NCBI RefSeq assembly: GCF_000020325.1
Contig: NC_010730.1
Location: forward strand, 1,571,501-1,635,500
Source of the DNA: Sulfurihydrogenibium sp. YO3AOP1
GTDB taxonomy: Bacteria; Aquificota; Aquificia; Aquificales; Hydrogenothermaceae
DNA: 64,000 bases
Direction: 5' to 3'
The translations under genes and the position numbers were made by a program. Below the pieces are notes generated by a model, which was not told the DNA's origin, searched no databases, and saw only the letters and a list, made by a program, of their open reading frames with translations. This document shows positions 18,277 through 21,976 of the stretch, one piece after another; positions within the stretch are counted from its first letter, which is position 1; each line of letters starts with the position of its first letter.

Positions 18277-18303
18277 GGGAGGAGTCAATCCTCCCTTTTT
18301 ATA
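18277..18303 (+). terminator. Intrinsic terminator after HU
   Basis: GGGAGGA/TCCTCCC (18277-18283 and 18289-18295), 5-nt loop, T run. It separates HU from the convergent znuB. Confidence 0.9.
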
Positions 18304-18335: not shown

Positions 18336-19085
18336 TCAGTGAGACCTTCTTAAAAATGAGATTACAGAAGACAATATCGCTAAAAAAGTTTGAGAAAATA
18401 CGATAGTGTAGCCTGTTGGCAAGTCAAAGTTATAAGATAAATACACTGCCAAAAGATTGATTAAACTACCTAAAATCACAGCATAAACAATTAAATTTTT
18501 AGAGAAAAACTGCATAACCGTAAACGCCGGAGCTATCAAGAGAGAAAAGACGACAAATACGCCGGCTAATGAAACTGAACTTGTGATTGTAATTGAAAAT
18601 ACAGAAAAAAATAACATCTCTTTTATAAATCCTACCGTAAATCTGTTAATCACAAATAAAAACAATCCTAAGACTGTATATAAAATAGCTGTTTTGTAAA
18701 CCTCTGTCATATTTACAAACAAGATATCATATGCAAGCAGATTGTTTAACTCCTCAAGACCGTGAGGCGATTTTGACATAATAATAAATATTAAAGAAAT
18801 TCCAAGAGCATAAATCAGTCCAATAAAGCCCTCTACGGAAACTTTTTCTTTTTTTGTTGCAAACGTTATTAAAATAGCTGTTATTAGTGCAAAAGATAGT
18901 GAGATTAAATATCTATACTGACCTTCAAAAAAGAAAAGAGAGACTGCCGCTCCTGCAGCAGCCATTTGTCCAATAGATAAATCAGTAAAGATTATCCCTC
19001 TTTTTATTATTTCTATTCCAAAGTAAGAATGGATAACCAATAAAACTATGGATAAAGTCAATGCAGGTACTAAAATATCACTCAT
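18336..19085 (-). CDS. znuB: Zinc/manganese ABC transporter permease
   Basis: 249 aa with seven to eight hydrophobic helices and the ABC-3 family signatures GIIFTDLSIGQMAAAGAAV and ISLAGVFVVFSLLIAPA-like segments (here SVSLAGVFVVFSLLIAP). It forms the inner-membrane channel for divalent metal, fed by ZnuA. The start overlaps the znuA stop (ATGA). No ATPase gene lies in this operon, so the energy subunit must be encoded elsewhere or shared. Confidence 0.88.
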   Translation of the reverse strand: MSDILVPALTLSIVLLVIHSYFGIEIIKRGIIFTDLSIGQMAAAGAAVSLFFFEGQYRYLISLSFALITAILITFATKKEKVSVEGFIGLIYALGISLIFIIMSKSPHGLEELNNLLAYDILFVNMTEVYKTAILYTVLGLFLFVINRFTVGFIKEMLFFSVFSITITSSVSLAGVFVVFSLLIAPAFTVMQFFSKNLIVYAVILGSLINLLAVYLSYNFDLPTGYTIVFSQTFLAILSSVISFLRRSH

Positions 19086-19966
19086 TTATTCATCCTTTCA
19101 ACGATTGTATCAAATAAAGAGAATATATCCTTTGCCTCTTCCACTGTTCCAACGTCATGAGGAAGGACTACAATTTTTAAACCTGTCTTTTCTGATAAGT
19201 ATTTTGCAGGTTTGATAGGATGGTAAACATCTTGTAAAATCATCTTCACATTTTCAGATTTTGCTTTTGAGATTAGCTCTTCTAAATGCTTTGCTGTTGG
19301 GGGTATTCCGGGTAATGGCTCTATCGTGTCTACAGAGATAATGCCATATCTTTTTAAGAAATAATCAAACAGCTTATGATACTGATAAACTTTTACTCCT
19401 TTCAAGTTTGCCATTTTTGAATTCCAAACGGCTAATTTTTCATTCCATCTTTTCTTAAAGTCAGATAGATTATTTTTGTAATAATCACAGTTTGAACTGT
19501 CAAGTTTGCATAGTTTTTCTGTAATAGTTTGCGAGATAATCAACACATTGTATGGGTCTAAGTGAAAGTGGGGGTTTCCCTCCGGATGTACGTCTCCCAT
19601 TACTCTTGATACGTTCTCCAGTTTTTCTATCAGATTAATATACTGAGATAAGTCTAAAAATCCATTTGAACCAGGGTTAATTTTTCTGTTGTTTGCTTGG
19701 TTTAAAAGCGGTGGAAGCCAGCCAACTTCAAGACCAGCTCCATTGATGATTAATAAATCCGCGTTTCTAAGCTTTACAGTTAAAGATGGCTTTGGAACGA
19801 TAAAGTGAGGGTCTAAGTTTCCAGAAGCTAAATAGTCTACCTGTGCTTTCTCTTTTACAATCTCCTTTGTGATGCTTGCTATGTATGGATATGTTGCTAC
19901 TACTTTAATTTCTGCTTCTGCAAATCCAAATGTTAATAAAATTAATAAAAACGATAGAACTCTCAT
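19082..19966 (-). CDS. znuA: Zinc-binding periplasmic protein of the ABC importer
   Basis: 294 aa. A signal peptide (1-18) and cluster A-I metal-binding residues: His54 in LDPHF, the His pair in NPHFHLDPYN (about 132-134), HKLFDYF and the late Asp in LPHDVGT. Unlike many ZnuA proteins it lacks a long His-rich loop, having only VHPEGNPHFH. It captures Zn2+ in the periplasm. It is 15 nt downstream of the outer-membrane gene and coupled to znuB. Confidence 0.88.
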   Translation of the reverse strand: MRVLSFLLILLTFGFAEAEIKVVATYPYIASITKEIVKEKAQVDYLASGNLDPHFIVPKPSLTVKLRNADLLIINGAGLEVGWLPPLLNQANNRKINPGSNGFLDLSQYINLIEKLENVSRVMGDVHPEGNPHFHLDPYNVLIISQTITEKLCKLDSSNCDYYKNNLSDFKKRWNEKLAVWNSKMANLKGVKVYQYHKLFDYFLKRYGIISVDTIEPLPGIPPTAKHLEELISKAKSENVKMILQDVYHPIKPAKYLSEKTGLKIVVLPHDVGTVEEAKDIFSLFDTIVERMNK

Positions 19967-19981
19967 TTTAAAACCTCCTTT

Positions 19982-21403
19982 TTAAAATCCGTGTGCTCCA
20001 TGGGCACCAATTGCCAAGTTAAACTGTAAAATAATCTCATGGTTAGGTTTTCTATCATTTCCTATAAACAAGCTTTTGTCGTAGTTATACTGAAGTCTGA
20101 TTCTTGAAAACTCGCTTGGCAAAAAGTCTATCATGGCAGAGTATTTATACATATTATCTGGCAGGTTCTTGTTTCTACCGTTTACAAATACATCATTTTT
20201 ATTGATTAAATCATATCTCAAACCAGCTCTCCATCTTTCGGCAAATTTATAGATTCCTTCGACATAAAATCCTGCCTGTTTTTTTTCAAGTCTTGGAGTT
20301 TGAATGTCTCCACTATCGTTATAACCAAACCTTGTTCCATCAAACTTTCTATAGATATATTCAGACTGTAAAAGTAAATATCTGTAAGAATCTAATGTGT
20401 GTCTTGCTGTCAGCTCAAATCCATAAATTTTTGTATCTCCAGATATTGCATGAGGGTTGTCATCTTCTAAATGGTTAATTCTTGTTTTTCCTTGTGCGTA
20501 TGATACACCTGTCAAGATTGAAGTATTGCCTATATCAAAAGATGGTTTGATGAAAAACGTAAATAGATTTGGCTTTTTAGTATCGTTAATTTTTATATAT
20601 GTGTTTGAAGTGCATTCTTTGGTTGTTGTATTTATTTGAGTACACACTTCAAATCCATTTCTGTTAAAGTTATTCTCGTTGTCTCCTTGGAAGACTTCAA
20701 AGCCCGTTAAAAGATAAAATGGAGTTGGTGCAAGCCATGATAACTGAATGCCTGTTTCGTTTAGATTTTCCTCTCCAAAAACAGCTCTGTATATCAAAGG
20801 TGCATCTGCAAAGTTCCAAATGTGATGGTGCTGTTTATTTAGCCTTCCAAATTCGCTATAAAATTTACCACCTTTTAGCTTTAAGTTATAGGGCAAGTCT
20901 CTTGTTTGAAAATATCCTTCTTCAATTTCAAAACCATCTCTATGAAGATGAAAAACACCAACCAAATCAAAGTATGGGTCAACTGTTGAAGATATATACA
21001 TTTCAGAATAATTGAAATTAAAGCCTCTTTCAGCATTCAATGGAGATTTCCCATCATGGAAAAACCCGTGATTAAATCCTGGAATTTGAACAGATTTGTA
21101 GCTGTCATCCGTAAGATTTCTGCTTACATAAGAAAAATCTGTAATCAAAGATATATCAGGAACAAATTTAGCCTGCGAGAATGGGTTAGATAGTATTTTA
21201 TCAATACTGCTTTCTGTTTGTAAGTTTTGTAATTTCTCCTTTGTCTGATTTAAAACTTCCTGCTGTTGTTCTAACTGGTTCAATCTTTCTTGAAGTTTGA
21301 TTATAATCTCTCTTTGTTTTTCAAGCTCTTTTTTTAAATCCTCTACGTTTTCTGCGTATGAAAATGTAAATAATGCCAACGTTGCAAGTAAGTATTTTTT
21401 CAT
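19982..21403 (-). CDS. Zinc-operon outer-membrane beta-barrel protein
   Basis: 473 aa. A signal peptide (1-17) is followed by a coiled coil with a Gln/Glu-rich heptad pattern (about 18-60), then a porin-like barrel with repeated aromatic strands. A His cluster KQHHHIW lies near residue 195 and the C-terminus is GAHGAHGF. The coiled coil would reach through the periplasm to the cell wall. Its position between a His-rich small protein and znuAB suggests that it moves zinc, or zinc bound to a carrier, across the outer membrane. The family resembles zinc-regulated outer-membrane proteins; substrate specificity is inferred from context. Confidence 0.7.
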   Translation of the reverse strand: MKKYLLATLALFTFSYAENVEDLKKELEKQREIIIKLQERLNQLEQQQEVLNQTKEKLQNLQTESSIDKILSNPFSQAKFVPDISLITDFSYVSRNLTDDSYKSVQIPGFNHGFFHDGKSPLNAERGFNFNYSEMYISSTVDPYFDLVGVFHLHRDGFEIEEGYFQTRDLPYNLKLKGGKFYSEFGRLNKQHHHIWNFADAPLIYRAVFGEENLNETGIQLSWLAPTPFYLLTGFEVFQGDNENNFNRNGFEVCTQINTTTKECTSNTYIKINDTKKPNLFTFFIKPSFDIGNTSILTGVSYAQGKTRINHLEDDNPHAISGDTKIYGFELTARHTLDSYRYLLLQSEYIYRKFDGTRFGYNDSGDIQTPRLEKKQAGFYVEGIYKFAERWRAGLRYDLINKNDVFVNGRNKNLPDNMYKYSAMIDFLPSEFSRIRLQYNYDKSLFIGNDRKPNHEIILQFNLAIGAHGAHGF

Positions 21404-21456
21404 AATACACCTCCTGCTTTTAATTTTAAAAAGTTAAATAGTAAAAAGCTTAGATA

Positions 21457-21738
21457 TTAGGCCAATACGGGAGGTGCTCTTGGGTTTTTGTTAGATGTTT
21501 TTTGAGATTTTAAGATCGACGTTTTGAATATTATTGGAAAGTCTTGATTAAAAGTTTGTATCTCATAAAAAAATTCAAGAGAATTAGGGTCTTCTGATTG
21601 TTGGTTTAATTGCAGTACGCAGACCTGACAATCTGTATGATGTTCTCCATCTTTATGATGGTGTGTTAGGGTTAAACTATTTGCGACTAATAGTATTATG
21701 CTTATTAATAAGCTAAGAAATCTGCTTAGTTTTAACAT
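21457..21738 (-). CDS. His-rich small exported protein (DUF2946-like)
   Basis: 93 aa from the chosen ATG. A signal-type hydrophobic segment (about 5-22) is followed by LTHHHKDGEHHTDCQVCVLQ, a cluster of five His with CxxC, and a Pro-rich tail PRAPPVLA. Such His/Cys clusters bind Zn or Cu. The longer open frame begins inside the operator and promoter, so the internal ATG is preferred. It is first gene of the zinc operon. The -10 box TATAAT ends 12 nt before this ATG and no ribosome site is visible, so the mRNA may be leaderless. Confidence 0.6.
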   Translation of the reverse strand: MLKLSRFLSLLISIILLVANSLTLTHHHKDGEHHTDCQVCVLQLNQQSEDPNSLEFFYEIQTFNQDFPIIFKTSILKSQKTSNKNPRAPPVLA

Positions 21739-21746
21739 GATGATAT

Positions 21747-21759
21747 TGTTATTATAACA
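21747..21759. promoter_or_regulatory. Zur/Fur-family operator overlapping the -10 box of the zinc operon
   Basis: A perfect 13-bp palindrome TGTTATTATAACA. The minus-strand TATAAT (-10) lies inside it at 21751-21756. The sequence agrees with the 7-1-7 type half-sites bound by Zur and other Fur-family repressors. Binding here would block the polymerase directly. Confidence 0.6.
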
Positions 21760-21767
21760 TATGCGTC

Positions 21768-21976
21768 GGATGAGAAATTTAAAAAAAATTAAGATTCTTT
21801 GCACGGCTGCAGAATGACAGCATTAGATGACTTTGTCGTCCTGAGGACTTTAGTCAAAAAGGATCTTCTCTTTTAAAGAAGGTGAGCAAGTAAGTAGAGG
21901 CAATTCATGAATTGCCCATACATTGAATAAGTGAGAGGTAAAAGAAAGGAGATTTGTTCGCCGGCTGTAGAATGAC
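21768..21976 (+). repeat. Dispersed palindromic repeat copies
   Basis: One copy runs from GGATGAGAAATTT at 21768 through AGAATGACA and GTCCTGAGGACTTTAGTC to AAGGTGAG at 21886. A second half (GGAGATTTGTTCG...TAGAATGAC) ends at about 21976. Between them lies the GGCAATTC palindrome. The copy abuts the zinc operon promoter. Confidence 0.65.
21899..21916. repeat. GGCAATTCATGAATTGCC palindrome
   Basis: A perfect 18-bp palindrome. Diverged copies lie at 41550-41567 and 63091-63110, also in intergenic DNA beside the other repeats. Confidence 0.55.

Follow-up and report, generated by a model that had tools for sequence, protein, structure and literature searches.

Organization of the locus

The window analyzed here is a 64,000-nucleotide stretch of the genome of Sulfurihydrogenibium sp. 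YO3AOP1 (contig NC_010730.1, positions 1,571,501 to 1,635,500), a genome of 1,838,442 bases in one contig. Its subject is a four-gene operon, hereafter the cassette, whose ATP-binding cassette (ABC) type permease has no neighboring ATPase gene and apparently lacks the loop at which an ATPase would dock. The four genes lie on the minus strand at positions 18336-21738 and encode, in this order, a small His/Cys protein, an outer-membrane protein, a ZnuA-like binding protein and a ZnuB-like permease, with the ZnuA and ZnuB genes overlapping by 4 bases. The next gene past ZnuB is a convergent HU-like gene, and no ATPase gene follows the operon. An earlier reading of the stretch, made from the sequence alone (the sequence-only reading), had described this gene content as a zinc operon and remarked that no ZnuC follows ZnuB; the gene content and the missing ZnuC are borne out, and a metal operon, probably for zinc, is supported.

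Permease structure and the coupling loop

The permease (249 amino acids; 18336..19085, minus strand) passes the gathering score of the ABC-3 family PF00950 (64.5 bits against 20.1, E 1.4e-17), and E. coli ZnuB (structure 9oko) was matched by sequence, with an E-value of 9.8e-14 in the profile match. Its AlphaFold2 model, with a predicted local distance difference test score (pLDDT) of 92.5, matches the fold of PsaB (7kyp; Z-score 23.8, root-mean-square deviation (rmsd) 3.9 over 244 residues) and, from BtuC residue 51 on, that of BtuC (2qi9; Z 19.8, rmsd 3.1 over 240 residues). According to the helix limits of the model, helices 126-149 and 152-174 are joined by a turn of two residues, 150-151 (18633..18638, minus strand). 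Since the permease fold matches BtuC, these two helices, counted by order, would correspond to transmembrane helices TM6 and TM7 of BtuC. In BtuC and BhuU, the TM6-TM7 loop is described as forming the coupling helix, by which the ATPase is gripped (PMC5117765, PMC5136619), so the gene and the docking site of the ATPase appear to be missing together.

The extent of the missing segment was assessed against a comparison set of 21 canonical Aquificota permeases. In a MAFFT alignment, all 38 Aquificota cassette permeases, the one from the window included, are without the stretch that reads FDEDLAYIGAV or FNEELAKLKGV in the canonical ones. The anchor-to-anchor distance amounts to 54-56 residues in 81/81 cassette permeases (the window and 80 other loci) versus exactly 70 in 21/21 canonical permeases, and MAFFT, HMMER against E. 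coli ZnuB and hhalign (99.2% probability, 248 columns) all place the gap at one position. By these alignments, about 15 residues are missing at the predicted cytoplasmic coupling loop of the cassette permeases, a segment kept in canonical Aquificota ZnuB. One branch with 100/100 support splits cassette from canonical permeases in the tree, which would be in line with one loss of the loop. The permease very probably docks no ABC ATPase in the usual way.

Distribution of the cassette

Forty Aquificota loci were taken around porin homologues, and 37 of them hold porin, ZnuA and ZnuB together, none with ZnuC in the operon; the sole ABC-type open reading frame (ORF) in these 37 loci lies on the opposite strand (L077). 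Among 84,980 species genomes scanned, 171 permease relatives were found, and the 80 best of them were retained. The lineages represented are Aquificota, Campylobacterota, Spirochaetota, Bacteroidota/Chlorobiota/Ignavibacteriota, Aminicenantota, Acidobacteriota, Sericytochromatia, Fischeribacteriota and Myxococcota, about eight phyla in all; they were read from record titles, and some labels of metagenome-assembled genomes (MAGs) may be wrong, as with an 'Acidobacteria' bin that falls inside Aquificaceae (L170). Co-occurrence of the four genes in other Aquificota, which the sequence-only reading had suggested checking, was seen there and far beyond.

The cassette permease is present in 117 loci (109 distinct sequences), and the gene order is constant. 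ZnuA lies at most 30 bp from the permease in 111 of 115 loci and the porin at most 400 bp from ZnuA in 110 of 112, while a His/Cys gene with an xPP end stands before the porin in 89 of 99 loci; it was not found in the remaining ten, L072, L127, L130, L139, L140, L153, L157, L176, L182 and L190. At least 1 kb beyond the permease is visible in 109 of the 117 loci, and no ZnuC adjoins the permease in the 37 Aquificota and 80 other loci. An ABC ATPase occurs in 5 of the 80 further loci, each time at a distance of 600 bp or more past the permease; the two nearest of these five are of an ordinary ABC type, and one of them has a TOBE domain. No neighbor beyond the four cassette genes is common to different lineages, the others being lineage-specific.

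Binding protein, His/Cys protein and porin

The ZnuA-like periplasmic metal-binding protein (294 amino acids; 19082..19966, minus strand) matches PF01297 with an E-value of 3.2e-46 and 158.4 bits (cut-off 29). Across 19 aligned sequences, H54, H127 and H197 are invariant and D271 is at least 90% conserved; we take these His and acidic residues to be zinc ligands.

The small His/Cys protein (93 amino acids; 21457..21738, minus strand) is predicted to be exported and carries a hydrophobic N-terminus, a HHHKDGEHHTDCQVC cluster and RAPP near its C-terminus. The ORF listing uses a GTG at 21804 as its start, and an ATG at 21738 follows the -10 box described below. Residues H26, H28, D30, H34, C37 and C40 are invariant in 28 Aquificota homologues, and the pattern H...CxxC is present in 49/49 profile matches from the genome-contig loci. 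The protein belongs to no Pfam family; DUF2946 (PF11162) was touched by 2 of the 28 members, with a best E-value of 0.048.

The outer-membrane protein (473 amino acids; 19982..21403, minus strand) is a predicted 16-strand porin-like protein. Its AlphaFold2 model (pLDDT 88.3) contains 16 long strands and an N-terminal coiled-coil helix, which spans residues 20-61 by model secondary structure (21221..21346, minus strand). A conserved His-containing C-terminal tail, residues 466-473 (GAHGAHGF; 19985..20008, minus strand), is modeled with low pLDDT. In 34 homologues from several phyla, H192, H194, H468, H471 and F473 are invariant. The best fold matches in the PDB are OprP (2o4v; Z 27.6, rmsd 3.4 over 317 residues) and OprO (Z 27.3), which share the 16-strand fold; the identity is nevertheless about 15%, and the conserved His, the GAHGAHGF tail and the coiled-coil N-terminus are the window porin's own. 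A sequence search against the PDB gave weak autotransporter matches only (E 0.05 or worse), and the Pfam family Porin_O_P was touched by one of the 34 homologues. A TonB-dependent receptor, i.e., a 22-strand barrel with a plug, was rejected, the model having 16 strands and no plug domain. The TonB-dependent zinc receptors ZnuD and ZnuK have the same job as is proposed for the window porin, moving zinc across the outer membrane (PMC4176598); in contrast to them, the porin is modeled with 16 strands and without a plug, so that no TonB energy would be expected.

Because His and other metal-type residues are conserved in the porin, the His/Cys protein and the ZnuA-like protein, a metal route through the cassette is very likely; zinc is the best guess for the metal, with copper or another metal as the alternative.

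Three loci (L084, L085 and L086), from genomes that we presume to be of Persephonella type, keep the His/Cys gene and the porin without ZnuA and ZnuB; the genes after the porin encode TPR and Wzz proteins, or UvrA, so that an ABC flag in L086 was false.

A candidate ATP-independent metal importer

We hypothesize that the cassette imports metal independently of ATP and descends from an ABC importer, a proposal that we regard as an even call. In its favor are the conserved set of four genes, the lack of an ATPase gene next to them, the missing coupling loop, and the cassette genomes in which no canonical ABC-3 permease was found (see below). The metal would cross the outer membrane via the 16-strand porin with its conserved His, and the anchored His/Cys protein would collect it or hand it on. 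The ZnuA-like protein would bind the metal in the periplasm and deliver it to the ZnuB-like permease, which would pass it inward down the electrochemical gradient as a secondary or facilitated transporter, with no ATPase supplied in trans. The membrane potential would favor import of a divalent cation. The permease lineage itself would be an ABC-3 importer minus coupling loop and ATPase. A parallel may be found in solitary BtuM and BioY, which are ABC-related membrane components transporting without an ATPase module (PMC6072759), as is proposed for the cassette; they differ from it in belonging to a different protein family, in having no binding protein and in their substrates. A broader version, to which we give slightly less than an even chance, is that the whole class, across about eight phyla, comprises binding-protein-dependent importers that became secondary or facilitated transporters through deletion of the coupling helix and are co-inherited with their own porin and periplasmic His/Cys carrier, using neither TonB nor ATP.

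Several points weigh against this proposal. The position of the coupling loop in the permease is placed by homology with BtuC and BhuU, on the basis of alignment and a predicted model. The best 80 of the 171 permease relatives were chosen by similarity, so the uniform deletion was partly selected for. Position 40 is Gln in 81/81 cassette permeases and His in 21/21 canonical ones, and Gln in place of an invariant His could mean altered or lost transport. A canonical permease is present in 37/37 Aquificota cassette genomes and in the window's own genome; ZnuC stands beside the canonical permease in 14 of 20 fetched loci by blastp, so that an ATPase is at hand there, the count being limited by the sensitivity of blastp at L102 to L105 and at two further loci. 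Finally, the 69 genomes surveyed for canonical permeases (see below) are mostly MAGs whose completeness is not given, and some absences may be gaps.

The window's own genome encodes 13 clear ABC ATPases, one of which adjoins a canonical ABC-3 permease at 1156-1157 kb, about 430 kb from the operon. This is the distant znuC for which the sequence-only reading had proposed a search, but the window permease is without the loop for docking it. In addition to the window operon, the genome contains every part of a canonical zinc-type system, dispersed over separate loci. The canonical znuC-znuB pair (L019:1483-3065; 1155.9-1157.5 kb) is preceded by an alcohol-dehydrogenase-like gene; the C-terminal tail of this ZnuC, HSDECLTCQHF, contains His and Cys. 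A second ZnuA-like gene stands alone at 1268 kb (L017:1441-2277), far from znuCB and directly behind a nicotinate-phosphoribosyltransferase-like gene.

The permease could share such a distant ZnuC in trans, either by docking in an unusual manner as a homodimer or by combining with canonical ZnuB into a heterodimer, which would make the operon an ordinary ABC zinc importer. The single ZnuC-type ATPase beside a canonical permease in the own genome and the canonical permease in every Aquificota cassette genome speak for this explanation, which we nonetheless consider unlikely: the docking loop is missing in all 81 cassette permeases, the model contains no cytoplasmic element in its place, and canonical ABC-3 permeases are absent from 27 of 69 cassette genomes (20/50 in one set, 7/19 in the other), with absences clustered by clade. 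Of the 80 contig loci, 70 gave access to these 69 genomes; a canonical permease was scored as absent when, apart from weak matches to the cassette itself or to longer BtuC-like proteins, nothing in the genome matched ABC-3 above 100 bits. The canonical permease is missing in 11/11 Bacteroidota/Chlorobiota/Ignavibacteriota loci versus 16/58 others (Fisher p 7e-6, a guide only, as the loci are not independent), a clade pattern that is hard to explain by gaps. Among a further 119 genomes of one class with at least 90% completeness, G216 and G288, judged to be of cassette type from match range and length, are without a canonical permease, besides G148.

It is rather improbable that the permease no longer transports and acts instead as a sensor or receptor reading metal-loaded ZnuA, or as a scaffold for envelope proteins. 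The loss of the coupling loop together with the exchange of His for Gln at an otherwise invariant position would fit such a role, and invariant positions kept over great distances indicate that some function was retained. However, no output gene is linked to the cassette, the neighbors beyond the four genes being lineage-specific, and the acidic membrane residues D35, E85, D120 and D221 are conserved in the cassette permeases, as expected of a cation path.

That the substrate is another metal or a chelate rather than zinc, or that transport runs outward or both ways, is likewise quite doubtful: specificity appears to rest on three His and an Asp in ZnuA and on His/Cys in the other proteins, and an ATP-free permease would be reversible, but among NCBIfam families the zinc protein AztC scores best for the binding protein (101.7 bits, below the cut-off of 350), followed by manganese MntC (73.7), and the presence of a binding protein of its own suggests that the cassette captures and imports its substrate.

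Relation to known transport systems

The cassette shares its binding-protein and permease families and fold with the ABC-3 importers ZnuABC and PsaBC (PF01297, PF00950); it differs from them in having no ATPase gene and no apparent coupling loop, in the replacement of His by Gln, and in the added porin and His/Cys protein. The type II importers BtuCD and BhuUV have the same membrane fold as the cassette permease (Z about 18 to 20), whereas their TM6-TM7 coupling loop and ATPase are absent in the cassette. The nearest named subfamilies are AztABC and the anchored-repeat ABC transporter of NCBIfam, for both of which NCBIfam lists an ATPase, in contrast to the cassette. Among the 38 cassette permeases, TIGR03770 was matched by 29 and AztB by 28 at E-values up to 1e-5; the window proteins fall far below the NCBIfam cut-offs (TIGR03770 41.7 against 296.8, AztB 38.1 against 280, AztC 101.7 against 350), and membership in AztABC was rejected on the AztB and AztC scores.

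No literature on an ATPase-less ZnuAB system was found in a search limited to open-licence papers, which is weak evidence. The parts belong to known families, while their combination, and an ABC permease family without the coupling loop, appear not to have been described. ABC importers are regarded as dependent on their ATPase. If the proposal is true, the cassette would show how a pump driven by ATP can turn into a transporter that is passive or driven by the membrane potential, and it would give sulfidic and anaerobic bacteria a way of taking up zinc. Genes annotated as 'metal ABC transporter permease' may, by the same token, not be ABC transporters.

Promoter region and palindrome

Upstream of the first gene lies the palindrome TGTTATTATAACA (21747..21759; an exact match that is not conserved), which reads TGTTATAATAACA on the coding strand. 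It holds TATAAT with TG ahead, forming an extended -10 promoter element, TGTTATAAT (21751..21759, minus strand), that begins 21 bases upstream of the first-gene ATG. Given this element, the palindrome needs just four further matching bases. With up to two mismatches, nine matches occur in the window against 7.3 expected, and 38 of 100 shuffles reach nine; the motif class is not enriched in the window, and only the exact copy at the operon stands out.

The sequence-only reading had taken the palindrome for a Zur-type operator overlapping the -10 box and had expected it before orthologous operons. The overlap with the promoter element is real, but the operator did not hold up. The idea was reasonable, since Zur sites characterized in Caulobacter have the same half-sites (TGTTAT, ATAACA), three bases apart, and overlap -10 boxes (PMC4176598); the evidence here is against it. 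The half-sites in the window are one base apart rather than three, and the palindrome was found in 3 of 41 upstream regions examined, namely in the window, L054 and L056, all more than 90% identical in these genes (L090 had no upstream sequence). No common palindrome precedes the 58 non-Aquificota cassettes. In the own genome, one other exact copy lies inside a coding gene, and no copy within one mismatch occurs at the znuC-znuB or second znuA loci. The Zur operator was rejected on account of the one-base spacing and the absence of the palindrome before orthologous operons and other zinc genes. The genome encodes three Fur-family proteins, none of which reaches the Zur cut-off or any other cut-off in NCBIfam, the best Zur score being 54.4 against a cut-off of 167.

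In 32 Aquificota upstream regions with a detected His/Cys gene, TGnTAnnAT lies at most 60 bases from the start in 13, a count that includes the window and its two near relatives, and some -10-like hexamer is found in 19. In other Aquificota, the first cassette gene sits directly behind an upstream gene, e.g., a FabZ-like one.

A further pattern, TGTTATNNNATAACA, was tried and rejected: with up to one mismatch allowed, the genome has 23 matches to it, against 6 for a control pattern, and none lies before the cassette or at the znuCB or second znuA loci. Many of these matches are copies of two sequences at fixed spacing, and hence probably a repeated element. Near-palindromic 15-mers, TGTTATACCATAGCA and TGTTATGGAAAAACA, recur in the own genome as pairs about 0.9 or 2.2 kb apart, for example at C1:52581 and 53486, 947709 and 949916, and 1560669 and 1561573; the pairs probably represent a repeated mobile element.

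At 1410 kb of the own genome (L015), a Fur-family regulator resembling PerR or Fur lies by a TonB-dependent receptor gene. Window positions 21900-21930, some 180 bases ahead of the operon, hold an inverted repeat of 18 bases, GGCAATTCATGAATTGCC, in an intergenic stretch that looks repetitive. At the other end of the locus, a consensus scan alone places a terminator-like hairpin after the convergent HU gene (18277..18295, plus strand).

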